Below are positions 113-11,958 of a DNA stretch of 52,000 bases, one piece after another (position 1 is the first letter of the stretch; the number at the start of each line of letters is the position of its first letter). Source of the stretch: Desulfoscipio geothermicus DSM 3669 (lineage in GTDB: Bacteria > Bacillota > Desulfotomaculia > Desulfotomaculales > Desulfallaceae); contig NZ_FOYM01000028.1 of assembly GCF_900115975.1 (NCBI RefSeq), positions 1-52,000 of the forward strand, written 5' to 3'. The notes under the pieces were generated by a model. It ran no database searches and was not told the DNA's origin. It saw only the letters and a list, made by a program, of their open reading frames with translations. The translations under genes were made by a program, and so were the position numbers.

Positions 113-697
113 TTATTTCGCCTCTTCCGGGTTAATCTTCACAGTATTGTGATGTGGGAAATTGCCTTCGGACTCTGTCAATTTTCTGATTTTCTGTCTG
201 GCGTGAAAAAGGCGGGACTTGACGGTTCCCACCGGCAAATCCAGGGCTGTGCTAATCTCTTCGCAGGACATATCTCGGTAATATTTTAGATATAGTATTT
301 GCCGGTACTCCGGTTGAAGGCTATTAATTTTTTGCTTAATCACTTGTTTATCTTCTTCTATGAGTAGGATAGTATCCGGGGATAATAGCTGGTTGTCTGA
401 ATAAATACTCCGGGGCTCCATATAAAGAGTGTTCCTTGAACGATGTCGGATAATGTCCCGAGCAGTGTTCACAGCCATACGGCATAGCCAGGCTTCCAAT
501 TTGGAGGGGTCTTCAAGCTGCTCTATTTTGTGTTTAATCTTAAGAAAGACTTCATGGACAGCATCTTCGGCAAGGCCCGTGTCATTGGTGATATAATAAG
601 CAGCCTGGTAAACAGGCCTGTAAAATAGTTCATAAACGAATCTAAGTGCCTGAACATCACCGCTTTTAATTTTTGAAACAATGGTTTCTGTATTCAA
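113..697 (-). CDS. RNA polymerase sigma factor, ECF (sigma-70) family
   Basis: ECF sigma factor of about 194 residues. Region 2 (roughly residues 10-80 from the TTG start) contains the FYRPVYQAAYYI and DAVHEVFLKI segments used for core binding and -10 recognition. Region 4 near the C-terminus has LQPEYRQILYLKYYRDMSCEEIS followed by the helix-turn-helix VGTVKSRLFHARQKI. The frame is open to an ATG at 748, but a TTG at 695-697 has an AGAAGGG ribosome binding site 8 nt upstream and gives the usual short ECF N-terminus, so I prefer it. The gene lies behind a c-di-GMP-I riboswitch and heads an operon with a probable anti-sigma gene. The regulon is unknown. Confidence 0.9.
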   Translation of the reverse strand: MNTETIVSKIKSGDVQALRFVYELFYRPVYQAAYYITNDTGLAEDAVHEVFLKIKHKIEQLEDPSKLEAWLCRMAVNTARDIIRHRSRNTLYMEPRSIYSDNQLLSPDTILLIEEDKQVIKQKINSLQPEYRQILYLKYYRDMSCEEISTALDLPVGTVKSRLFHARQKIRKLTESEGNFPHHNTVKINPEEAK

Positions 698-747
698 AAT
701 GAAAACCCTTCTTTCAATGGTATTACCAAAATAAACATTGGGTTTCA

Positions 748-784
748 AAATAAAAGATTATCCTACATGTAAACACAGGATAAG
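748..784 (-). terminator. Possible expression-platform hairpin between riboswitch and sigma gene
   Basis: On the minus strand, TTATCCT (complement of 777-783) pairs with AGGATAA (complement of 758-764), with an inner TGT/ACA extension. It is followed by a T-rich stretch (complement of about 748-757). It sits between the c-di-GMP aptamer and the sigma gene, where an intrinsic-terminator expression platform is expected. The stem is AT-rich and therefore weak, so this is tentative. Confidence 0.4.
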
Positions 785-1991: not shown

Positions 1992-2066
1992 ACTTTCACT
2001 TCATAACGTTGTTTAATGTAAAATTATGGTTTATAATATTGGAAACGGCCTTAGAAGGTGGTATTT

Positions 2067-2504
2067 TTGATTCACAGGCGACCAATAGATTTTACCGATT
2101 TTGCTGCCGGGTTGGATAGGTTTAAGATAAAACTGGAAAAACATGCCTCCGATGTTATAGCCGTCTATTTATTCGGCTCCTGTGCCCGCAATGAATTCAA
2201 GCCGTTAAGTGATGTTGATATAGGCATTCTTTTTGTGCCACCGGTAAAATCAGAACTGGAAACGAGAGTATTAATTAATGCCATGGAAGCTTTGCATACG
2301 GAAGAAGTTGATCTGGTAGTCCTGAATGATGCCCCGCTGCATATCCAGTATGAAGCGATAAAAGAAAGAAAGATTATATTCTGCACAAACCATGAAAGGC
2401 GAGCCGATTTTGAAACCAGGGTGTTAATGGAGTATCTTGATTTTGCTCCCATCAGGAATGAGTTTTTTAAAGAATATATGAAGCGTTTGGGTTTGGGTGG
2501 ATAA
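2067..2504 (+). CDS. mntA: MntA-type minimal nucleotidyltransferase antitoxin
   Basis: About 145 residues. The nucleotidyltransferase signature is clear: LFGSCARNEFKPLSDVDIGIL has the GS motif followed by the DxD metal-binding pair, and a third acidic position follows in EEVDLVVL. In the MntA/HepT (type VII) systems the MNT protein inactivates its HepT partner by AMPylation. The next gene is a HepT-like protein 4 nt away, which supports this role. I choose TTG at 2067 because AGAAGGTGG lies just upstream; a GTG at 2058 is the alternative. Family function is established knowledge; activity of this copy is inferred. Confidence 0.8.
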   Translation: MIHRRPIDFTDFAAGLDRFKIKLEKHASDVIAVYLFGSCARNEFKPLSDVDIGILFVPPVKSELETRVLINAMEALHTEEVDLVVLNDAPLHIQYEAIKERKIIFCTNHERRADFETRVLMEYLDFAPIRNEFFKEYMKRLGLGG

Positions 2505-2508
2505 GACT

Positions 2509-2940
2509 ATGGATACAAGAATACTGGAGCACATTAAACTCTTAGATAAATATTTAAGTTATTTGGAATCATTTACTAAAGTTGCAAAAGAGGATTATTT
2601 GTCTGATATTACTATTCAGGGAGCAACAGAACGGTATTTACAGTTATCTATTGAAAGTTGTTTGAATATAGGGGGACGTGTTTTATCCTTAAACCAGGAT
2701 GCTCCGGAGTTAGCCGCCCCTTGTAATTATGCCGATATTTTCATAAAACTGGGTAAACTGGGAGTAATGCCGGAGTCTTTTGCCGGCAGACTTGTGCATA
2801 TGGCCAAGTTTCGCAATAAACTTGTGCATGGATACTGGGAAATTGATAAAGAAAGAGTATTTCAGATTCTTCATGAAGATCTGAAGGATATTTATAAATT
2901 CAGAGAATACATTATAAAGTACCTGGCAAAGAAGAATTAA
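2509..2940 (+). CDS. hepT: HepT-like toxin, HEPN/DUF86 ribonuclease
   Basis: About 143 residues, mostly helical. The HEPN RNase motif Rx4HxY-type is visible as FRNKLVHGYW (around residues 107-116), preceded by the DUF86 core with YLQLSIESCLNIGGRV. HepT proteins cleave RNA and are neutralised by the adjacent MntA nucleotidyltransferase. The ATG at 2509 has a GGTGGAT binding site and lies 4 nt after the antitoxin stop; a GTG at 2497 would overlap it. All expected catalytic residues appear present, so the pair is probably intact. Confidence 0.82.
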   Translation: MDTRILEHIKLLDKYLSYLESFTKVAKEDYLSDITIQGATERYLQLSIESCLNIGGRVLSLNQDAPELAAPCNYADIFIKLGKLGVMPESFAGRLVHMAKFRNKLVHGYWEIDKERVFQILHEDLKDIYKFREYIIKYLAKKN

Positions 2941-2941
2941 G

Positions 2942-2977
2942 CAGGGTGGATGGAAGTGATAACTTATATCCACCCTG
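2942..2977. terminator. Bidirectional terminator between hepT and hndD
   Basis: Perfect 10-bp inverted repeat CAGGGTGGAT / ATCCACCCTG with a 16-nt loop, between the convergent hepT and hndD genes. The flanks are moderately T-rich (TTCAGTTGTTG on the plus strand). Confidence 0.7.
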
Positions 2978-3003
2978 TTCAGTTGTTGTATATAAGTGAA
3001 ATA

Positions 3004-4725
3004 CTAATATTTTTGGCGTGCCAGGTAGTGGGTGTGCAGCAGCTCATGTGACTTGTGTCCCAGGGGTTCGCCCAGAAATTCCTTGTACAGGGCCTGAACG
3101 GCCGGGTTTTCATGGGATTTGCGCAGGGGCATGGCCCGGTCGGCGTCGTAAATGCCCGCCGCTCTCCTGGCGCGAATTTCCCTGTCGGTGGGAATGGGCT
3201 GGCCGCCGCCGCCGATGCACCCGCCGGGACAACACATTATTTCAATGAAGTGATATTCCTGCCCACCGGATACCCGCTCCAAAATTTCCCTGGCGTTGGC
3301 CAGACCGTGGGCCACGGCCACATTCAAGGTGGTGCCGTTCAGGTTCACGGAGGTTTCCTTGACCCCTTCCAGTCCCCGCACGGCATGGAATTCCAGGTCA
3401 GGTAAGGTTTCCCCGGTGACCAGTTCGTATGCGGTGCGCAGCGCAGCCTCCATAACGCCGCCGGTGGAACCGAAGATTACCCCGGCACCGGTGGAAATGC
3501 CCAGGGGGCTGTCATACTCTTCTTCCGCCAGAGAGTTGAAGTCAATGCCGGCCTCTTTGAGCATCTTACCCAGTTCCCGGGTGGTCAGGGCCACGTCCAC
3601 GTCCCGGTGGCCGCTGCCGTTCATTTCCTCCCGGCCCGCCTCAAATTTTTTGGCCGTGCAGGGCATGATGGAAACCACGAATATATTGGACGGGTCAATA
3701 CCGGCTTTTTGGGCGTAATAGGTCTTGGCCAGGGCTCCGAACATTTGCTGGGGCGACTTGCAGGTGGAAAGGTGCGGCAGCAGGTCCGGGTAAAAGTGTT
3801 CGATAAACTTGATCCAGCCGGGGCTGCAGGAGGTAATGAGCGGCAATGTGCCGCCTTCCTGCAGGCGTTTTATTAATTCACTGCCTTCTTCCATGATAGT
3901 CAGGTCGGCGGTGAAGTCGGTGTCGAAAACCCGGTCAAAGCCCAGCTTACGCAATGCCGCCACCAGTTGGCCGGTGGCCACCCGGCCCGGTTCCGCGCCA
4001 AACATCTCGCCGATGCTTACCCTTACGGCGGGAGCGGTCTGCACCACCACGTGTTTTTCCGGGTCCGCCAGGGCGGCCCACACCTCGCCGGTCTGATCTT
4101 TTTCGTGAATGGCCGCCGTGGGGCAAACCAGGGCGCACTGCCCGCAATTTACACAGGCCGCATTGCCCAGGGGTTCCAGGAACGCCGGAGCCACGACGGT
4201 ATCGAAGCCCCGTTCCTGGGGGGCGATGGCACTGACCTGCTGCACGTTTTCGCAGACGCTTACGCAGCGCCGGCAGAGAATGCACTTGCGGGGGTCGCGG
4301 ACCAGCGAAGGGCTGGAAAAGTCGGGCTCGTAGGGCGACATGGCACCGGTAAAGCGCAATTCGCTGATGCCCAGTTCCGCGGCCAGTTGCTGCAGTTCGC
4401 AGTTGGTGCTGCGGGGGCAGATCAGGCACTCCTGCGGGTGGTTTGACATGATTAACTCCAGGTTTAGTTTACGGGCTTGGCGTACCTCGGGCGTGTTGGT
4501 GCGTACCACCATGCCTTCGGTTACCGGGGTTACGCAAGAAGCCTGTAAAGTCCGGGCGCCCTCCACTTCCACCAGGCAAATGCGGCAGGACCCGATTTCG
4601 TTGATTTCTTTCAGGTAGCAAAGGGTGGGAATTTTAATGCCGGCTTGCCCGGCGGCCTCCAGCACGGAGGTGCCCGGCACCGCCTGTACCTGGACGCCGT
4701 CTATGGTTAAATTTATCAATGACAT
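3004..4725 (-). CDS. hndD: [FeFe] hydrogenase catalytic subunit HndD
   Basis: 573 residues, the usual length for NAD(P)-dependent [FeFe] hydrogenase subunit D. Domains in order: N-terminal 2Fe-2S ferredoxin (cysteines in PTLCYL and GSCRIC), His-Cys 4Fe-4S site (HPQECLICP), two 4Fe-4S clusters (CILCRRCVSVC and CVNCGQCALVC), then the H-cluster domain. The three H-cluster motifs are intact: TSCSPGW, MPCTAKKFE and MCCPGGCIGGGGQP. It ends with the small-subunit-like C-terminal segment. It reduces protons or oxidises H2 and exchanges electrons with HndA/B/C in the cytoplasm. It is last in the hndA-ATPase-hndB-hndC-hndD order, with an ATGGAGGA binding site before the ATG. Confidence 0.97.
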   Translation of the reverse strand: MSLINLTIDGVQVQAVPGTSVLEAAGQAGIKIPTLCYLKEINEIGSCRICLVEVEGARTLQASCVTPVTEGMVVRTNTPEVRQARKLNLELIMSNHPQECLICPRSTNCELQQLAAELGISELRFTGAMSPYEPDFSSPSLVRDPRKCILCRRCVSVCENVQQVSAIAPQERGFDTVVAPAFLEPLGNAACVNCGQCALVCPTAAIHEKDQTGEVWAALADPEKHVVVQTAPAVRVSIGEMFGAEPGRVATGQLVAALRKLGFDRVFDTDFTADLTIMEEGSELIKRLQEGGTLPLITSCSPGWIKFIEHFYPDLLPHLSTCKSPQQMFGALAKTYYAQKAGIDPSNIFVVSIMPCTAKKFEAGREEMNGSGHRDVDVALTTRELGKMLKEAGIDFNSLAEEEYDSPLGISTGAGVIFGSTGGVMEAALRTAYELVTGETLPDLEFHAVRGLEGVKETSVNLNGTTLNVAVAHGLANAREILERVSGGQEYHFIEIMCCPGGCIGGGGQPIPTDREIRARRAAGIYDADRAMPLRKSHENPAVQALYKEFLGEPLGHKSHELLHTHYLARQKY

Positions 4726-4746
4726 ACATATTCCTCCATTTATTAA

Positions 4747-6540
4747 TTAAACGGTTATAATAGCGTCAAATTTACATTTCTGCTTACATGTGCCGCACTT
4801 GATACATTTATCGGTGTCAATCACATGGGGCTTTTTCTTTTCCCCTATAATGGCTTCGGCCGGGCATACTTTGCTGCACAGGCCGCATCCCTGGCAGGAT
4901 TTGGCGTTGATGTAATAAGTCAACAGGGCCTGGCAGGCGCCCGCCGGGCACTTTTTATCTCTGATGTGTGCTTCGTATTCGTCACGGAAATAGCGCAGGG
5001 TGCTCAGCACGGGGTTGGGTGCGGTCTGGCCCAGCCCGCACAGGGCGGAGTTTTTAATGCCCGCACTCAGTTCTTCCAGCAATTCAATATCTCCATTCCG
5101 ACCGTTGCCCGCGGTGATGCGTTCCAAAATCTCCAGCATGCGCTTGGTGCCGATGCGGCAGGGGGCGCACTTGCCGCAGGATTCCTCCTGGACAAATTCC
5201 AGAAAAAACTTGGCCAGGTCCACCATACAAGTTTCTTCATCCACAATGATCATCCCGCCGGAGCCCATGATGGTGCCCAGCTTGGTCAGCGATTCATAAT
5301 CCACCGGGGTATCCAGGTAGTCCTCGGGTATGCACCCGCCGGAAGGCCCCCCGGTTTGAACGGCCTTGAACTTCTTACCTGCGGGGATGCCTCCGCCAAT
5401 GTCGAAAATTATCTCCCGCAAGGTGGTACCCATGGGCACTTCCACCAGGCCGGTGTTGTTTACTTTGCCGGCCAGGGCAAACACCTTGGTACCCTTGCTT
5501 TTCTCGGTGCCAATGCCGGCAAACCACCGGGGACCGTTCAGGATAACGGGGGGGATGTTGGCCAAGGTTTCCACGTTATTGATCACCGTTGGTTTGCCCC
5601 ACAGGCCTGCCTGGGCCGGGAAAGGCGGTTTGGGGCGCGGTTCGCCGCGCTTGCCCTCGATGGAGGCCAGGAGTGCGGTTTCTTCGCCGCATACGAAGGC
5701 CCCGGCGCCCACCCTGATTTCAATATCAAAGCCAAAGTCCGTACCGAAGATATTATCGCCCAATAATCCGTACTCCCGGGCTTTGCCGATGGCGATTTCC
5801 AGCCTGTCCACCGCCAGGGGGTACTCAGCCCGGACATATATGTAGCCCCTGTTGGCTCCAATGGCATACCCGCAGATGGCCATGGCTTCCAGAACCGAGT
5901 GGGGGTCGCCTTCCAAAATGCTGCGGTCCATAAAAGCGCCGGGATCGCCTTCATCGGCGTTGCAGACTACGTACTTGGGATGTCCGGGGGCCCGGGCGGT
6001 GAATTCCCATTTCAATCCGGTGGGGAAACCCGCGCCGCCGCGGCCCCGCAGGCCCGATTCCTTGATGGCTTCAACCACCTCGGCGGGGGTCATTTGCGAC
6101 AGAGCCTTGCCCAGCGCGCGGTAACCGTCTCGGGCGATATATTCCTCCACGGATTCCGGGTTTATCACGCCGGTATTGCGCAGCGCGATGCGGGTTTGCT
6201 TTTTAAAGAAGTCCAACTGGTCAAAACCGGCCACCTGCTTGTCGTTGCCGGCGGGCCGGTGCAGCAGCCGGGTAACCACTTTTCCTTTTAGCAGGTGCTC
6301 GCTGACAATTTCGGCGGCGTCTTCGGGTTTCAACCGGCGGTAAAAAACTCCGTCCGGAAAGACCATTACTACCGGACCCAGGTCGCAGGGGCCCATGCAG
6401 CCGGTTTCCACCACTTTGACCTCGCCGGTCAAACCGTTTTCTTCAATGTGTTCCAGCAGTGCGCTTTGCACCGATTTGCAGGCCGAGGATATGCAGCCCG
6501 CCCCGGCGCAAACCAGCACGTGGGACCTGTACATTTCCAT
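4747..6540 (-). CDS. hndC: NAD(P)H-binding flavoprotein subunit HndC (NuoF-like)
   Basis: 597 residues. An N-terminal thioredoxin-like 2Fe-2S domain (CAGAGC...ETGCMGPCD) is fused to a NuoF core with the glycine-rich NADH site GLRGRGGAGFPTGLKW, the FMN-site segment NADEGDPGAF and the N3 4Fe-4S motif ESCGKCAPC. The C-terminus adds two 4Fe-4S clusters (CQGCGLCSKVC and CIKCGTCKQKC). This is the architecture of HydB/HndC subunits of multimeric, sometimes electron-bifurcating, [FeFe] hydrogenases, where the subunit transfers electrons to or from NAD(P). AAGGAGG precedes the ATG, and hndD follows after 21 nt. Confidence 0.96.
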   Translation of the reverse strand: MEMYRSHVLVCAGAGCISSACKSVQSALLEHIEENGLTGEVKVVETGCMGPCDLGPVVMVFPDGVFYRRLKPEDAAEIVSEHLLKGKVVTRLLHRPAGNDKQVAGFDQLDFFKKQTRIALRNTGVINPESVEEYIARDGYRALGKALSQMTPAEVVEAIKESGLRGRGGAGFPTGLKWEFTARAPGHPKYVVCNADEGDPGAFMDRSILEGDPHSVLEAMAICGYAIGANRGYIYVRAEYPLAVDRLEIAIGKAREYGLLGDNIFGTDFGFDIEIRVGAGAFVCGEETALLASIEGKRGEPRPKPPFPAQAGLWGKPTVINNVETLANIPPVILNGPRWFAGIGTEKSKGTKVFALAGKVNNTGLVEVPMGTTLREIIFDIGGGIPAGKKFKAVQTGGPSGGCIPEDYLDTPVDYESLTKLGTIMGSGGMIIVDEETCMVDLAKFFLEFVQEESCGKCAPCRIGTKRMLEILERITAGNGRNGDIELLEELSAGIKNSALCGLGQTAPNPVLSTLRYFRDEYEAHIRDKKCPAGACQALLTYYINAKSCQGCGLCSKVCPAEAIIGEKKKPHVIDTDKCIKCGTCKQKCKFDAIITV

Positions 6541-6579
6541 TACCTTAGCCTCCTTGCTTTTTGCTGTTAGTTGAATTTT

Positions 6580-6942
6580 CTAACTTCTTTCCGGCGTGGT
6601 CCATTCCTTGATCACTTGACCGGCCACCAGGTGCTTTTTGACTATTTCCCGGGCTTTATCCCGGTCCACATTGATATAGGTAATCTTTTCGTTGCCCCGG
6701 TTTACTTCCACCAGCGGCTCGTGCTGGCAGAGGCCGGCGCAGCTGGTTTGGGTCAGGGCCACCCTGCTCAAGCCCTGTTCTTTCATTTCTTCCAGCAGGG
6801 CTTTGACGATTTCCCGGGCGCCGGCCGCAATACCGCAGGTGCCCATGCTCACCGTTACGGTGACGTCGTGATCTTTTTCCCGGACATTCATTTCCTGCCG
6901 TAGTTTCTCCCGCAGTTTATCCAGTTCGGCCAAGCTCTTCAT
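6580..6942 (-). CDS. hndB: HndB, (2Fe-2S) ferredoxin-domain subunit
   Basis: 120 residues. Thioredoxin-like 2Fe-2S domain with cysteines in VSMGTCGIAAGA and TSCAGLCQHEP. It corresponds to HndB of the four-subunit Desulfovibrio hydrogenase and to the N-terminal 2Fe-2S module of NuoF-like proteins. It likely relays electrons between NAD(P)H and the hydrogenase subunit. The start overlaps the end of the upstream ATPase gene by 26 nt, so the two are probably translationally coupled; hndC follows after 39 nt. Confidence 0.92.
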   Translation of the reverse strand: MKSLAELDKLREKLRQEMNVREKDHDVTVTVSMGTCGIAAGAREIVKALLEEMKEQGLSRVALTQTSCAGLCQHEPLVEVNRGNEKITYINVDRDKAREIVKKHLVAGQVIKEWTTPERS

Positions 6943-7498
6943 TGGTTTCCCTCCTTAAATTTGCAATGTTTTCATCCAGGTAGTTTTGCAACCATACCAG
7001 CACTTCCGGTGTCTGCAGGGGGATAGCCCCCAGGTGGATACACAACTTCCTGGTATTGAAAAGAAAATTTCTGTTGTTGTACTTGTGGCGATAGGTGAGG
7101 TTTACGGGCTGCCGGCCTGTTATAAGGGCGATCAAAGTGCCGGTAATGTCTCCGAGCGGGGCGCGGTCCAGGTGGTCATGCGGAAAAACAGCCGTGACGG
7201 AAGTTCCTTTGCGGGGCAGCGCCTTGATCTCCAGGTTGCCTCCGCATCTTTGCACGGCTTCCTGAAGCAGGGGGACGCCCAGACCTACGCGTTTGTGTTT
7301 CTTGGTAGTAAAAAAGGGGTCCGTGATTTTGGGGATATCATTTTGGGTAATACCGCGGCCGTTATCCAGCACCCCGAATGCCAGGATATTGGCGACAGTG
7401 TCTTCCCTGACAGTGATGGTTAAATCGGTGGCGCCGGCTTCCAGGGAATTAAAGGCAATATCCAGGATATGCTGGGATAGGTCCTCCACGCGGATCAC
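6917..7498 (-). CDS. Histidine-kinase-like ATPase (GHKL) inside the hnd operon
   Basis: 193 residues. The GHKL ATP-binding fold is clear: N-box LDIAFNSLEAGA, G1 box LDNGRGI, and a lid/G2 segment FFTTKKHKRVGLGVPLLQEAV. There is no dimerisation/phospho-acceptor domain, so it is not a complete histidine kinase; the C-terminal 80 residues match nothing I recognise. The GTG start overlaps the hndA stop by 4 nt and its own end overlaps hndB, so it is embedded in the operon. Such ATPases occur between hndA and hndB in related clostridia. A role in regulating or assembling the hydrogenase is an inference. Confidence 0.85.
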   Translation of the reverse strand: MIRVEDLSQHILDIAFNSLEAGATDLTITVREDTVANILAFGVLDNGRGITQNDIPKITDPFFTTKKHKRVGLGVPLLQEAVQRCGGNLEIKALPRKGTSVTAVFPHDHLDRAPLGDITGTLIALITGRQPVNLTYRHKYNNRNFLFNTRKLCIHLGAIPLQTPEVLVWLQNYLDENIANLRRETNEELGRTG

Positions 7499-7992
7499 TC
7501 CTTGGCATATTTTTCTAAAATACTGGATAATTTATCGGTATGTACCCGCCCGTAAACATCATCGTCCACTGTCATCACCGGGCCCAGGCCGCAGGCTCCC
7601 ACACACCGGACCACGTCCAGGGAGAACTGCCCGTCATCGCTGGTGTCCCCGGGCCCGATGTGATAATCCTTTTCCAGTTGATTGAGCAGTTGGTTGGCTC
7701 CGCGAACGTAACAAGCCGTACCGGCACAGACGCAGATTTTGTGTTTGCCCTTGGGCTTGGTGGTAAAAAAGGAATAGAAGGATACCACACCGTAGACCCT
7801 GGTGAGCGGCACGTTAAGCCCTTCGGACACCATTACCTGCACTTCCCGGGGCAAGTATCCCACCGCGTTTTGCGCCTTGTGCAGCACCTGGATTAAACTG
7901 CCGGGCTGCCCCCGGTAGGGTTCCATTATTCTTCCTACCTCGTTTAGTTGTTCCGGTTCCAACTGGGTATGGCATGCACAGCCATTTGACAT
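7495..7992 (-). CDS. hndA: HndA, NuoE-like 2Fe-2S subunit
   Basis: 165 residues. The N-terminal helical part is followed by the thioredoxin-like 2Fe-2S domain with cysteines in CVCAGTACYVRG and VRCVGACGLGPV, the NuoE pattern. It is the first gene of the hnd operon with AAGGAGG 7 nt before the ATG. It pairs with the NuoF-like HndC for electron transfer to NAD(P). Intact and of normal length. Confidence 0.95.
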   Translation of the reverse strand: MSNGCACHTQLEPEQLNEVGRIMEPYRGQPGSLIQVLHKAQNAVGYLPREVQVMVSEGLNVPLTRVYGVVSFYSFFTTKPKGKHKICVCAGTACYVRGANQLLNQLEKDYHIGPGDTSDDGQFSLDVVRCVGACGLGPVMTVDDDVYGRVHTDKLSSILEKYAKE

Positions 7993-8136
7993 GTCGTCAA
8001 CCTCCTTTTGTAGTTTTTGTAGTATGTTTGATATGAAACCGCCGGTTACTAAGATACTTGCAGATTATTGTTTTGCGGCTATTATTGGCGAATGCCGGCG
8101 CAATCTGTATACGTGTCATAATTTTTGAGGCAAGTT

Positions 8137-8487
8137 TTACATTATTGAATAATCAGATAATAAAGCATAAATGCGTCCACAGGCCTGAAAATTGTTCAGC
8201 GGTGTAAAAAAAAGCGCCAGCCCCTCTTTTTCAGCGGTTTCCAGGGTATCGGTTTCGGGTGTGCGGCCGCCTGTGATCACAATGCCGGAAAGATTTACGA
8301 GGGAGGCCACCGCCACAATGTTGCGGTGGCGGTGGATGGTAATCCAAAGATCACCGGGGGAGGCATGGGCCAGGACATCGCTTAACAGATCCCCGCAATA
8401 AGCGCCCCGGATGTCCCGCTGTAGGGTTTGGGGATCGGTCAGCAAAGTTAATTGCAACGACTGGATAATTTTACTCCAAAGGTTCAT
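8137..8487 (-). CDS. DRTGG-type domain protein (distal gene of H2-sensor operon)
   Basis: 116 residues. It resembles the DRTGG fold: GDLLSDVLAHASPGDLWIT, followed by VNLSGIVITGGRTPE, which fits the GGR/T region. The ATG overlaps the stop of the hydrogenase-like gene by 4 nt (ATGA), showing coupling. DRTGG domains are thought to be regulatory or ligand-sensing. A second, more divergent member heads the same operon (10265-10612). No catalytic role can be inferred. Confidence 0.7.
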   Translation of the reverse strand: MNLWSKIIQSLQLTLLTDPQTLQRDIRGAYCGDLLSDVLAHASPGDLWITIHRHRNIVAVASLVNLSGIVITGGRTPETDTLETAEKEGLALFFTPLNNFQACGRIYALLSDYSIM

Positions 8488-9827
8488 TTTTGTCCCTCCT
8501 CGGTGCCATTTACCGTTTCCCGGCCCATGGCCGGCGGCCGCATATGGGCCAGGTCGACAATTTCCCTGGCCAGAAGCTGTAGTTTTTCCCGTAGTTTAAA
8601 AACGCAAAAAGAGGTCTCCGCATAACCTCGCACAATATCCTCCGCCAGAGCCCGGCAACTGGGTGAGCCGCAGGAGCCGCAATCCAAACCAGGCAGTTCG
8701 GCGGTGATCCTTTCCACCTCTTCCAGCATACTGATGGCCTTTTGGATGTCATTGCTGAGCTTTAAGGTAGGGCGCGGTGCTATGGGGCTTTTCAGCCGGT
8801 AGTAGCCGGGATCGGTAGGGATTTCCGGTAATTGCTGCTCCCGACCGGCCAGCTTTTTTAACAGACTTTCCATGCGTACCCGGGAAACAAACGGGTTCTG
8901 GGGCACCAGAGGGCCGCCGATACACCCGCCGGTGCAAGCCTGCGCCTCCACGTAGTCGATGTCCCGCAGCCCGCCCCGTTCGATTTCCTCCAGCACATTG
9001 ATCACATTATGGATGCCGTCTACCGCCAGCAGGGAATGCTCCTTGATGGCGTGGTTTTCACCCCCGGTTTTACCCCAGCCCACGCCCCGGGCCGGCGAAA
9101 TGCTGGATAAAAGCCTGGTGGTGGGGGACTCCAGCCGGCCCAGTATTTCACCGTATATCGCGGACATGGATATGGCCCCGTCAACATATGAGCGCTCGCC
9201 GAAGGGCTGCTTTACGGCAGTGACCTTGGCCGGGCAGGGGGTAATAAAGAAAATGCCTATTTCTTCGTCTTTGAGGCCGTGGTCGCGGGCGGCCCTTTCC
9301 CGGGCCATGCGGGCGGCCACTTCCATGGGGGTTTCCATGGGTACGATATGTTCCAAAAGCCCGGGGAATTTAACCTGCATCAACCTGATTACCGCGGGGC
9401 AGGCCGAGGAAATCGCGGGCCTGGGGCACTGCCGGCCCAAATACTCGCGCAGGTGCATGGATACGGCTTCGGCCCCCACGGCCACTTCAAAGTAAGTATC
9501 AAACCCCAGGTCCAGGAGCGCCCCGAGGATATGGTGGGGCATTACCCCGGGCCCGAACTGAGCGTACAGGGAAGGTGCGGGCAGGGCAATGGTATATTTG
9601 AAATTGGCCAGGGTTGCCAGGGGATCGGTGATGGCCAGCTTGGCGCGGTTGGGACAGATGCGGATGCACTCGCCGCAGTCAATGCAGCGTTCTTCAATAA
9701 TCCTGGCCTGACCCTCGCGCACCCGGATGGCCTCCGTGGGGCAATGTTTGATGCAATTGGTGCAGCCTTTGCATTTTTCTCCGTCCAACGTCACCGAATG
9801 GAAGTATTTTTGCACTTTATTCACCAC
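8484..9827 (-). CDS. Sensory-type [FeFe] hydrogenase-like iron-sulfur protein
   Basis: 447 residues. Two N-terminal 4Fe-4S clusters (CKGCTNCIKHC and CIDCGECIRIC) precede an H-cluster-type domain with variant motifs: SSACPAV instead of TSCCP, TPCPAK, and QACTGGCIGGPL lacking the usual GGGQP tail. The C-terminal part carries a CGSCGSPSC Fe-S domain (about residues 395-405) and a helical end. There is no N-terminal 2Fe-2S or PAS domain. Such divergent proteins (groups C/D) are regarded as H2 or redox sensors rather than bulk catalysts. It starts with GTG, overlapping the RsbT-like ATPase gene, and is followed by a DRTGG protein. Confidence 0.85.
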   Translation of the reverse strand: MVNKVQKYFHSVTLDGEKCKGCTNCIKHCPTEAIRVREGQARIIEERCIDCGECIRICPNRAKLAITDPLATLANFKYTIALPAPSLYAQFGPGVMPHHILGALLDLGFDTYFEVAVGAEAVSMHLREYLGRQCPRPAISSACPAVIRLMQVKFPGLLEHIVPMETPMEVAARMARERAARDHGLKDEEIGIFFITPCPAKVTAVKQPFGERSYVDGAISMSAIYGEILGRLESPTTRLLSSISPARGVGWGKTGGENHAIKEHSLLAVDGIHNVINVLEEIERGGLRDIDYVEAQACTGGCIGGPLVPQNPFVSRVRMESLLKKLAGREQQLPEIPTDPGYYRLKSPIAPRPTLKLSNDIQKAISMLEEVERITAELPGLDCGSCGSPSCRALAEDIVRGYAETSFCVFKLREKLQLLAREIVDLAHMRPPAMGRETVNGTEEGQK

Positions 9828-10242
9828 TTGCTTGATTGAATATTATCGATTTCACATGGGTGCCTTTGTTTACCGCTGAATCAATTTGCAATTTATCGGA
9901 ACAACGGTTTATGTTGGGCAGGCCCATTCCCGCCCCAAAACCCATTTCCCGGATATGGGGGGGCGCGGTGGAATACCCTTCCTGCATGGCCAGGGTAATA
10001 TCGGGTATGCCCGGGCCTTCGTCCAGGGCCTCTATTTCCACCCGATCCGGGTATACATGTGCGGTCAGGGTGCCCCGCCGGGCATGAATAACAATGTTTA
10101 ATTCCGCTTCGTAAGCCACGATAACCGCCCTTCTGACGGTATGCACTTCCATACCCACCATTTGCAGCGCTTTTTTGATTTTAGCAGCGGCTTCCCCGGC
10201 CCGGTTGAAGTCCATGCCCTGTACCTCGAACTGCATTTGCAA
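9817..10242 (-). CDS. RsbT/SpoIIAB-like serine-protein-kinase/anti-sigma-type ATPase
   Basis: 141 residues. GHKL ATPase of the small RsbW/RsbT/SpoIIAB class: N-box YEAELNIVIHA, G1 box DEGPGIPD, and a G2 region MGFGAGMGLPNI. No sensor or transmembrane part is present. In relatives these proteins phosphorylate antagonist proteins or bind sigma factors. Here it is translationally coupled to the sensory hydrogenase-like gene (11-nt overlap), suggesting it relays the H2/redox signal. The target is not visible in the window, although an ECF sigma factor gene lies about 9 kb away. Confidence 0.8.
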   Translation of the reverse strand: MQMQFEVQGMDFNRAGEAAAKIKKALQMVGMEVHTVRRAVIVAYEAELNIVIHARRGTLTAHVYPDRVEIEALDEGPGIPDITLAMQEGYSTAPPHIREMGFGAGMGLPNINRCSDKLQIDSAVNKGTHVKSIIFNQASGE

Positions 10243-10264
10243 AATTAATCACGCTCCATTGGTG

Positions 10265-10612
10265 TCATGAACTTTGTAAACCGTGCTGGTACAACAGGCC
10301 GCAGCTTTCAAAGAGAAAACGTTTGGTTACCAAAAGTGGTATTTTTTTTCCTTCAGCTAACTGGATAATTTCCTTGCCGGGCTTTTTTCCCCGCACGAAC
10401 AGTATCGCTCTGGCCTCGATCATGTCCGCCACGCGAACGATTTGTATATTGGTAAGCCCGGTGATCAACAGGCATTCCGGCCTGGAAAAACACAGTGAAT
10501 CGCTGATCAGGTCGCACCCGAAGCCGGAACTGACTTCAATGTCCAACATATCCGCGCCGGTAATTATTTCGGCGTCCAATATGCGTTTAACATCCTGTAA
10601 CTTGATAAGCAA
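10265..10612 (-). CDS. DRTGG-like domain protein (first gene of H2-sensor operon)
   Basis: 115 residues. It is a divergent DRTGG-type fold: GCDLISDSLCFSRPECLLITG, then VADMIEARAILFVRGKKP, matching the layout of the other DRTGG protein at 8137-8487. It lies 22 nt upstream of the RsbT-like ATPase and starts the operon after an AT-rich promoter region. Probably a small regulatory or ligand-binding protein; function not established. Confidence 0.65.
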   Translation of the reverse strand: MLIKLQDVKRILDAEIITGADMLDIEVSSGFGCDLISDSLCFSRPECLLITGLTNIQIVRVADMIEARAILFVRGKKPGKEIIQLAEGKKIPLLVTKRFLFESCGLLYQHGLQSS

Positions 10613-10701
10613 TCACCTGCCCATAAACAATTCTTATTGAAAACCACCATAACTAATAAGTTAATATTATAAATATTGATAAAATATTATTATTACTACC
10701 T

Positions 10702-10730
10702 ATCATAATTAAAGTATTGTAAAAAATCAA
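10702..10730 (-). promoter_or_regulatory. Sigma-A-type promoter of the H2-sensor operon
   Basis: On the minus strand: TTGATT (complement of 10725-10730), 17-nt spacer, TATGAT (complement of 10702-10707), within a very AT-rich 150-bp region. It would start transcription about 80 nt before the DRTGG-like gene. Confidence 0.45.
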
Positions 10731-10768
10731 TAAGTTTTCATGCAATTTTGACATGTGAAAAAAATTTT

Positions 10769-11254
10769 TTAGAGGTTATAACTATTACTTTCTGTAGTAT
10801 TGGGGCCGGTCAGAACGGGGCAGGGTATTTTTTTGGTCAAACGGTGCAGGTTGAACTTCAACCCGCAGGCGGCGGCAGGGCCGGTGGCGTGGGGGTTGGG
10901 TAGGACGAGCAAGGCGGGTTGGGTTTGACTTACAATAGTTAAAACCACTTTTTCAAAGCGGCCGGTTTTTATGGCAGTTTCTACTATAACCCCTTGCTGC
11001 CGGGCCCGGTTGGCAAATTCAATTAATATTTCATCTGCGTATTTTTGCACACTTGTTTCGAACCAGCGGTAGAACTGCATTCTGGTCAAAGAGTTGCTCA
11101 TCCATTCATCGCCGAGGATGTCGCGCCAGCTTTCGTCAATGATAAATAAGGCCTGTAGAGCGGTTTGCCGGGATAAGGCTATTTGGATGGCTTGCAGCCC
11201 GGCCATGCGAGCGGAATATGAGCCGTCGGTGATGTATAGAATATGCCCGGTCAT
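10769..11254 (-). CDS. Universal stress protein family (UspA-like)
   Basis: 161 residues. The Usp alpha/beta fold is suggested by ILYITDGSYSARMAGLQAIQIAL at the N-terminus and VVLTIVSQTQPALLVLPNP, then RLTKKIPCPVLTGPN, at the C-terminal end, as in Usp proteins. The usual GxxGxxxx(S/T) ATP loop is poorly conserved (ATGPAAACGLKF). It starts with ATG after GAAAGGAGT, is transcribed alone, and lies upstream of the H2-sensor operon on the same strand. Stress role inferred from family. Confidence 0.7.
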   Translation of the reverse strand: MTGHILYITDGSYSARMAGLQAIQIALSRQTALQALFIIDESWRDILGDEWMSNSLTRMQFYRWFETSVQKYADEILIEFANRARQQGVIVETAIKTGRFEKVVLTIVSQTQPALLVLPNPHATGPAAACGLKFNLHRLTKKIPCPVLTGPNTTESNSYNL

Positions 11255-11409
11255 TGGTGACTCCTTTCAGAGTAACAGTTATGCTAATGATTATTATGCC
11301 ACAAAAAATAGCTAAAGTTTTTAAAGATCCATTGCTTCTCAGTCCAACCGGTTTTACAAATGCCTCCTGGTAAGTATATAATTAAACAAAGCAATAAATG
11401 GTGGTAATT

Positions 11410-11958
11410 ATGCTCAACCGCTGGAAATTAATGTTTTTGATGGTTTTAACAATAATCACGCTTGTTTCATGCACGGGACAAGCCAAGATGGACCCTTTGA
11501 TTAAAGCAGCTATGGAAGGAAACTCCGGTGAAGTTGAAAAATTGCTCAGGGACGGAGCGGAAGTGAACGCCAGGAATAAAGACGGTAACACAGCTTTGAT
11601 GTGGGCGGCGTATAAAGGACATGCCGGGATAGTGCAGGTTCTCCTGGAACATGGCGCGGCTTTGGATATACAGGGCAACCAGGGTTGGACAGCTTTAATG
11701 TTTGCGGCGGCCACGGGGAGAACTGAGATTGTGCGCACAATGATAAAACATGGCGCTGATATCAACCAAAAGAACGCAAACGGTTTTACAGCTCTAATGT
11801 ACGCGGCCATGGGGGACAATAAGGAAACTGTGCGGTTATTGATTGACCACGGCGCTATCGTCAATGCAAAAAATAACGATGGCGAAACCGCATCTACTTT
11901 GGCGGAAAAGGAAGGTTGCTTTGACATTGTCGGACTGCTGGAAAAGGATAATACCTAA
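11410..11958 (+). CDS. Ankyrin-repeat lipoprotein
   Basis: About 182 residues. The N-terminus is a lipoprotein signal peptide: positively charged start, hydrophobic core (FLMVLTIITL) and lipobox LVSC, predicting lipidation of Cys. The rest is four to five ankyrin repeats with the usual GxTALMxAA pattern (NTALMWAAYKGH, WTALMFAAATGR, FTALMYAAMGDN) and a final ETASTLAEKEG. The ATG at 11410 has GGTGG upstream; an ATG at 11398 is the alternative. Exported to the outer face of the membrane; likely protein-binding, partner unknown. Confidence 0.88.
   Translation: MLNRWKLMFLMVLTIITLVSCTGQAKMDPLIKAAMEGNSGEVEKLLRDGAEVNARNKDGNTALMWAAYKGHAGIVQVLLEHGAALDIQGNQGWTALMFAAATGRTEIVRTMIKHGADINQKNANGFTALMYAAMGDNKETVRLLIDHGAIVNAKNNDGETASTLAEKEGCFDIVGLLEKDNT

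Follow-up and report, generated by a model that had tools for sequence, protein, structure and literature searches.

According to a 2026 paper, no group D (M2e) [FeFe] hydrogenase other than TamHydS of Thermoanaerobacter mathranii has been characterised, and finding its interaction partner(s) is critical for understanding the signalling mechanism (PMC13104023). Group D enzymes are described as having two N-terminal [4Fe-4S] sites, an H-domain and a C-terminal Cx2Cx4Cx16C cluster, with no PAS domain (PMC8163306), and their association with a neighbouring 'histidine kinase' has already been published. Among the PAS-type enzymes of group C (TmHydS, R. albus HydS and HfsB), deletion of HfsB shifts the fermentation products of several species (PMC5707799; see also PMC11837493). 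Here, we describe a gene cassette of Desulfoscipio geothermicus DSM 3669, found in a stretch of 52,000 nucleotides (NZ_FOYM01000028.1, positions 1 to 52,000; hereafter the window), in which a hydrogenase of this sensory type, HydS, is encoded with two small DRTGG proteins (DRTGG-1 upstream and DRTGG-2 downstream of HydS) and two GHKL ATPases (ATP1 and ATP2), next to hnd genes. On balance, we lean towards the view that HydS, ATP1, ATP2, both DRTGG proteins and HndB, joined in many relatives by a PHP-family protein, make up a single regulatory unit, in which HydS would be an exchangeable H2 input and which would act on the neighbouring ferredoxin-linked complex.

HydS compared with group C and group D hydrogenases

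The HydS gene (8484..9827, minus strand) encodes a protein of 447 amino acids (aa), which we assign to the group D type (M2e) from Pfam matches, conservation, residue mapping and a tree. Pfam detected Fer4 in two stretches, Fe_hyd_lg_C (PF02906) and a C-terminal FeS domain (PF04060), and gave no PAS match in HydS. The C-terminal cluster Cx2Cx4Cx16C corresponds to C383, C386, C391 and C408, so that the domain layout and the 2-4-16 cysteine spacing are those of group D. A first-pass annotation of this DNA had listed the H-cluster motifs SSACPAV, TPCPAK and CTGGCIGGPL; all three are indeed present in this open reading frame (ORF), and the corresponding H-domain residues are A142/C143, T196/C198 and Q296/C298/C302. 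The H-cluster cysteines C143, C198, C298 and C302, as well as all the C-terminal cluster cysteines, are kept in 67/67 of the HydS loci presented below, and each H-cluster cysteine is found in 84 or 85 sequences of a wider set of 86, in which some genomes are possibly represented twice. The position of the proton-relay cysteine (C299) is Ala in the window (A142); Ala is found there in 51/86 sequences and Ser in 24/86. Both methionine positions framing the H-cluster (M353 and M497) are also replaced, by Thr (T196) and Gln (Q296). Conserved H-cluster cysteines, a residue other than Cys at C299 and the loss of both methionines together form the residue pattern of group D.

TamHydS and the window HydS are alike in their domain layout, the four H-cluster cysteines, the C299-to-Ala change, the C-terminal Cx2Cx4Cx16C cluster, the lack of PAS and the location upstream of a group A operon (PMC8163306, PMC3608648). 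They differ at the M353 and M497 positions, which in print are S and L in TamHydS, as opposed to T and Q here. Six of the eight TamHydS landmarks (C20, K126, A137, S249, E252, D265, E289 and C379) are alike in the window HydS, while K126 and S249 are replaced by G and T; it should be noted that these landmarks were mapped through a proxy (L110, which has 7/8 at the published numbers), not through a named TamHydS sequence. Group C enzymes share the sensory-type H-domain and a C-terminal Fe-S domain with the window HydS. In contrast to them, it has no PAS domain, is separate from the C-like rows of our tree and is linked to DRTGG and GHKL genes (PMC5707799, PMC11837493).

Comparison with groups C and D by phylogeny had been suggested at the first pass. 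In a tree of 40 rows picked for spread, the 23 HydS of the cassette stood on one side of a branch with a support of 100/100, opposite 9 group A, 1 tentative group B, 5 C-like and 2 sigma-54-fused rows; as the tree is unrooted and holds no named group D reference, it separates HydS from the C-like rows without placing it in group D. A PAS match was obtained in one of the three C-like rows run through Pfam, and the group D label was on none of the 60 best solved-structure matches listed for HydS. HydS is best read as a known kind of enzyme, a group D-type [FeFe] hydrogenase with a putative H2-sensing function. The proposal that an [FeFe] hydrogenase of the sensory type lies in a signalling neighbourhood linked to hnd is supported by the group D architecture, the Ala at the relay Cys, the H-cluster cysteines and the linkage to ATPase and DRTGG genes.

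The sigma-54-fused rows, which sit among the C-like rows, represent another protein type. Each is a single protein in which an [FeFe] hydrogenase domain of the sensory type is joined to a sigma-54 activator domain and a Fis-type helix-turn-helix, with a length of 732 aa in L067 (8380-10578, minus strand) and 734 aa in L068 (9439-11643, plus strand). These fusions could possibly be one-protein H2-responsive transcription activators. Frames of 755 and 757 aa at the matches in genomes G016 and G112 are possibly of the same type. No paper on a sensory [FeFe] hydrogenase fused to a sigma-54 domain was found in a search of open-access papers.

A gene row conserved with and without HydS

In the window, HydS is preceded by DRTGG-1 (10265..10612, minus strand; 115 aa, TTG start) and ATP1 (9817..10242, minus strand; 141 aa, TTG start) and followed by DRTGG-2 (8137..8487, minus strand; 116 aa). 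These four genes had been annotated at the first pass as overlapping or closely spaced, and the ORF coordinates agree; the upper bound then given, 10730, lies 118 bp beyond the DRTGG-1 start. The same-strand row extends past 8137, with hndA (7495..7992), ATP2 (6917..7498), hndB (6580..6942), hndC (4747..6540) and hndD (3004..4725), all on the minus strand, down to 3004. From DRTGG-1 to hndD, the spacings are in order 22, -11, -4, 144, -4, -26, 39 and 21 bp, so that the gap of 144 bp between DRTGG-2 and hndA is the sole wide one. The hnd genes encode a thioredoxin-like [2Fe-2S] NuoE-type subunit (HndA; PF01257, 169.6 bits), a small thioredoxin-like [2Fe-2S] protein (HndB; PF01257, 28.9 bits), a NuoF-like NADH-binding subunit with a Fer4 tail (HndC; PF01512, PF10589 and Fer4) and a group A [FeFe] hydrogenase catalytic subunit (HndD; NF040763, group A6, 928.1 bits for a cut-off of 765). 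Across loci, hndB mostly adjoins ATP2: it was located at most 400 bp after an ATP2-profile ORF in 60/79 cases, two of which, L120 and L121, showed no hndA.

Relatives of HydS (E ≤ 1e-60) were found in 159/398 genomes of the phylum, and ATP1, sought independently with a profile (E ≤ 1e-25), in 168/396. With n taken as 396, 157 genomes encode both, 2 HydS only, 11 ATP1 only and 226 neither (phi 0.93, kinship not corrected). A contig scan with the single protein gave one relative, on a contig of a metagenome-assembled genome. For the analysis of neighbourhoods, 67 HydS loci from 65 genomes were picked by HydS similarity, spread and contig room, not by their neighbours; the phylum set comprised 40 loci chosen among the phylum matches, and Pfam was run on chosen representatives of the neighbours. 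HydS was called in the loci by phmmer with the window protein, as earlier profiles mixed HydS with HndD, and the alignment profiles A1-A3 held 29, 29 and 28 rows of 65, 62 and 64.

ATP1 was a same-strand neighbour of HydS in 65 of the 67 loci, the upstream DRTGG gene in 61, the downstream DRTGG gene in 64, ATP2 in 60 (downstream), hndA in 55, hndC in 54 and a PHP gene in 44; these are numbers of loci rather than of independent events. The trio of upstream DRTGG, ATP1 and downstream DRTGG is complete in 57/67 loci and is accompanied by ATP2, hndA and hndC in 47/67. Where present, the PHP gene comes after DRTGG-2; it is missing in the window and in 21/26 other loci of its order. Chance is unlikely to be the cause of this cluster, because the source genome (3.65 Mb) has four DRTGG matches, two of them here, and the trio recurs in 57/67 unselected neighbourhoods. 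The four-gene module of the first-pass annotation thus stands as a conserved set, but the unit is larger, with ATP2, hndB and, in 44/67 loci, PHP, and it also occurs without HydS.

This last form came from 23 follow-up loci, consisting of 9 of the 11 ATP1-only genomes (without G341 and G429), extra ATP1 copies and weak HydS loci. In 13 of the 23, DRTGG and ATP1 genes stand with no HydS nearby, although a weaker HydS (above E 1e-60) may lie elsewhere in the ATP1-only genomes; these are also 13 of the 88 ATP1 ORFs examined, which is not a frequency, since the 23 were taken because they were discordant, extra or weak. Six of these loci (L150, L152, L156, L157, L173 and L174) have the row DRTGG, ATP1, DRTGG, PHP, ATP2, which in L173 runs on into hnd genes. 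In two others, the row is DRTGG, ATP1, hndB, rnfC (L149 by Pfam, L151 by similarity). Genomes G406 and G485 also hold a HydS locus with its own ATP1. A cassette with HydS adjoins rnf in L119 (Pfam) and in L120 and L121 (similarity).

Many of the HydS-less loci encode an ATP1 with a pair of CBS domains, which was found in 6/6 of their ATP1 proteins run through Pfam. By similarity, CBS is present on ATP1 in 8/13 HydS-less versus 3/75 HydS-bearing ORFs. On a cassette tree of 74 of the 90 loci, built without 13 near copies and without loci that lacked ATP1 or held a single part, the presence of HydS requires 5 changes, at least 3 of them on starred branches, and CBS requires 3. Because the cassette also occurs without HydS, often with CBS on ATP1, H2 would be just one input out of two or more. 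One HydS-less row, L153:1589-10116 (minus strand), is led by DRTGG and ATP1. They are followed by genes for a 183-aa protein of unknown nature, a repressor of the Rex type and a multihaem cytochrome, then by NAD-dependent reductase and Nfn-like genes, a formate-tetrahydrofolate ligase gene and rnfC.

DRTGG proteins, GHKL ATPases and their natural fusions

The annotation of two DRTGG proteins and an anti-sigma/serine-kinase-type ATPase was confirmed by Pfam. Both small proteins exceed the PF07085 cut-off of 25.2 bits (28.3 for DRTGG-1 and 29.3 for DRTGG-2). As their search profiles became nearly the same, the two were told apart by position and not by profile score. In a tree of 36 of the 90 loci, to which two very long out-group rows unhelpful for rooting were added, DRTGG-1 and DRTGG-2 fall on opposite sides of one branch (support 86/78), five HydS-less loci included, and the split takes one change in 200/200 bootstrap trees (116 columns). 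Among PDB sequences, both DRTGG profiles matched best the regulatory region of a CBS-pyrophosphatase (3l2b/3l31). The association of DRTGG with CBS in that region is also seen in the HydS-less cassettes; in contrast, the DRTGG and CBS domains of the cassette go with a GHKL ATPase rather than a pyrophosphatase, and DRTGG is mostly free-standing. The Ser of the DRTGG motif DLxSD is conserved in 98% of DRTGG-1 and 100% of DRTGG-2 sequences. We considered this residue as a phospho-acceptor but did not include it in the mechanism, because this site aligns ambiguously with a further DRTGG protein encoded in the genome.

ATP1 matches HATPase_c_2/HATPase_c (PF13581/PF02518) and is predicted to be a SpoIIAB/RsbW-like GHKL ATPase or Ser kinase. 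E45, N49, D74, G76, G78, G101, G103, G105 and G107 are identical in 65/65 ATP1 sequences. The N, G1 and G2 boxes are present in the sequence, and the GHKL fold was seen in a model of a relative (L101, below). Its nearest NCBIfam model is SpoIIAB (TIGR01925), with 48.7 bits, under the cut-off of 135. ATP1 shares the GHKL fold and the ATP-site boxes with the anti-sigma factor kinases SpoIIAB and RsbW, but it is below the SpoIIAB cut-off, has no STAS match nearby and in some cases forms one protein with DRTGG or CBS. The fold of the ATP1 domain also matched a chain of the SiaB-SiaC complex (6kko, Z 12.3), a likeness of fold only, which we take as a lead towards switching with a non-STAS partner. 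As for ATP2, it matches HATPase_c and HATPase_c_3 only (PF02518, 57.8 bits); Pfam gave no match to a HisKA/DHp phospho-acceptor domain in the window protein, which thus differs from a two-component histidine kinase.

Natural fusions link several of these proteins. DRTGG-1 and ATP1 form a single protein in L101, L102, L105, L106 and L133 (5/88 ATP1 ORFs; families f55, f106 and f84), HydS and DRTGG-2 do so in L097 and L098 (2/67 loci, both of family f51), and PHP and ATP2 in L115 and L122 (family f29); one example of each type was confirmed by Pfam. In the model of the L101 fusion (pLDDT 92.5, pTM 0.80), the ATP1 half matched SpoIIAB (1til, Z 18.9) and the DRTGG half matched the DRTGG protein AF1212 (2ioj, Z 17.5) and the DRTGG domain of the CBS-pyrophosphatase (Z 14.3). 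We claim no domain contact from this model because it came without inter-domain error. The model of the L097 fusion had a mean pLDDT of 82.3, and the Foldseek matches listed for it were [FeFe] hydrogenases and hydrogenase-containing complexes; its DRTGG part was low in confidence (blocks 43 to 85), so we read no interface from it. A first alignment for that model (A5) went unused, since its DRTGG-only rows were badly placed (7-17% identity). As judged from the fused sequences, DRTGG-1 is a probable partner of ATP1, and DRTGG-2 is likewise a probable partner of HydS.

Upstream of the row, an AT-rich region (10613..10768, minus strand) is a possible promoter region, with one sigma-70-like match at 10730-10702 (9/12). 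Since 13 sigma-70-like sites were found in 2000-11400 versus 8.6 +/- 3.1 in shuffles, this promoter evidence is weak. A Rex operator was also sought there as part of a scan of 60 loci with a Rex consensus; the best site upstream of the window DRTGG-1 was poor (4 mismatches, 30/100 shuffles as good) and was rejected. Better Rex-like sites were obtained in L114 (1 mismatch), L044 and L134 (2) and L109 (3), where at most 2/100 shuffles were as good.

Several neighbouring genes deserve mention. A gene of the universal stress protein family (10769-11254, minus strand) directly precedes the row. At the opposite edge of the window and still on this strand, a 211-aa ORF (113-748, minus strand) looks by eye like an extracytoplasmic function-type sigma factor, with no tie to the cassette, and adjacent ORFs of 148 and 147 aa (2058-2940, plus strand), by eye a nucleotidyltransferase/HEPN-type pair, are located between hndD and a LysR-type gene. 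Among the relatives, a PAS-HisKA-HATPase kinase gene lies ~0.6 kb upstream of DRTGG-1 in L044 (12042-13769, minus strand) and ~0.1 kb upstream in L045 (6713-8371, plus strand), and in both a LysR gene follows HydS directly in opposite orientation. In L101, a Rex-type repressor gene (11005-11646, minus strand) shares 4 bp with the beginning of the gene for the DRTGG~ATP1 fusion.

How the cassette may work, and the alternatives

Within the single regulatory unit towards which we lean, H2 or its redox poise would alter the state and shape of the H-cluster of HydS. DRTGG-2 would dock on HydS and DRTGG-1 on ATP1, as the natural fusions suggest, and a contact between the two DRTGG proteins would relay the state of HydS to ATP1, which could then work as an ATP-dependent kinase or switch. 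ATP2 and HndB might couple ATP1 to the ferredoxin-linked complex encoded alongside, which is Hnd in the window and Rnf in other loci, tuning its activity or expression, and PHP, where present, may reset the state. A HydS-less cassette with CBS on ATP1 would read adenine nucleotides instead; the domain difference is observed and the ligand predicted. The low H2 evolution of TamHydS, its lower Km for H2 than those of groups A and C (PMC10407848) and the reported change of its secondary structure with H2 (PMC13104023) speak for this role of HydS. More tentatively, we suggest that the cassette could be a signalling system not described so far, whose sensors are exchangeable, with an [FeFe] hydrogenase reading H2 or a CBS pair reading adenine nucleotides; in it, DRTGG would take the role of STAS, and the activity or expression of Hnd and Rnf would be set. 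In our searches of open-access papers, which miss most of the subscription literature, neither DRTGG nor PHP or CBS parts were mentioned in a group D hydrogenase setting, and the cassette around HydS, its fusions and its HydS-free, CBS-bearing form appear undescribed there.

Several points weigh against a unit of this kind. The H2 response, the contact between the DRTGG proteins, the kinase activity and the target are predictions. HydS (E ≤ 1e-60) occurs in only 26/113 genomes of the window's order. L044-L046 keep DRTGG-1, ATP1 and HydS without DRTGG-2, PHP or hndA/hndC, so DRTGG-2 is not essential everywhere, and L124 has HydS and DRTGG-2 with hnd genes and no ATP1 alongside. The exchange between CBS and HydS is imperfect, as CBS is present despite HydS in L107, L120 and L121 and absent from the HydS-less loci L153, L154 and L175-L177; it is suggestive and not significant once kinship is corrected for, because there are only 3 independent pairs on starred branches. 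Since each type of fusion comes from few families (three, one and one), few fusion events took place. No output protein (sigma factor, receiver or DNA-binding partner) was seen to be general in the neighbourhoods, and the C-terminal cluster of TamHydS is reported to be unresponsive to H2 (PMC13104023).

HydS could instead be a catalytic subunit that feeds or drains Hnd electrons, the small ATPases and DRTGG proteins regulating or assembling a super-complex, with no H2 signalling as such. All the H-cluster cysteines are indeed kept, and hndA and hndC lie downstream on the same strand in 55/67 and 54/67 loci. However, adjacent hndA/hndC are missing in L044-L046 (a hndD-like gene is 4-8 kb off on the other strand) and in L126 and L135 (a hndA is ~9 kb off on the other strand), and HydS stands beside rnf in L119-L121. 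With the changes at the C299, M353 and M497 positions (A142, T196 and Q296) and the low activity of TamHydS in print (PMC10407848), we consider a catalytic role unlikely.

Classical partner switching would make ATP1 an anti-sigma factor and serine kinase, with a STAS antagonist and a sigma factor encoded elsewhere and HydS controlling the antagonist. A partner-switching circuit was the first reading of the locus. The sequence of ATP1 and the modelled fold of the L101 fusion are indeed closest to SpoIIAB, and some STAS protein is encoded in 44 of the 45 module genomes. Yet in none of the 45 did a STAS match share a contig with HydS at a distance of 60 kb or less (many assemblies are fragmented, and positions were compared by eye); the nearest lies at ~61 kb (G470), 18 genomes have a single match and one has none. 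A STAS antagonist encoded with the kinase was thus seen in 0/45 genomes, ATP1 falls under the SpoIIAB cut-off (48.7 vs 135 bits), and the fusion partners observed are DRTGG and CBS, not STAS. After this search, canonical partner switching was dropped as the leading reading; in its known form, we regard it as quite unlikely. The strongest HATPase_c_2 match of the source genome is another protein (C37:3026, 198 aa), located ~230 bp from a STAS match (C37:2502); this pair is probably spoIIAB/spoIIAA.

The cassette might also be an assembly or repair machine, its GHKL ATPases acting as foldases for Fe-S-rich complexes and HydS as a quality or H2 check. GHKL folds include chaperones, and the cassette is linked to two large Fe-S complexes, Hnd and Rnf; nevertheless, the best fold matches of the ATP1 domain are anti-sigma kinases and the CBS input domains point to regulation, which makes this proposal improbable. 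Most improbable is that a neighbouring regulator modulated by the cassette (a PAS histidine kinase, Rex or LysR) is the real effector at some cassettes: despite the PAS-HisKA-HATPase kinase and LysR genes of L044 and L045 and the Rex-type gene upstream of the L101 fusion (all by Pfam), the further Rex in L153, and a Rex-type family in 9/67 and a LysR-type family in 16/67 loci by similarity, none of them is general, and the best Rex-like site upstream of the window DRTGG-1 is equalled in 30/100 shuffles.

Returning to the regulatory unit that we favour, the fusions and the co-occurrence name candidate partners, with DRTGG-2 placed directly on HydS and DRTGG-1 on the kinase. If this is true, signalling by H2-sensing [FeFe] hydrogenases would become open to direct tests, and hydrogenase and Rnf-type energy metabolism in the phylum may prove to be under shared and modular control.

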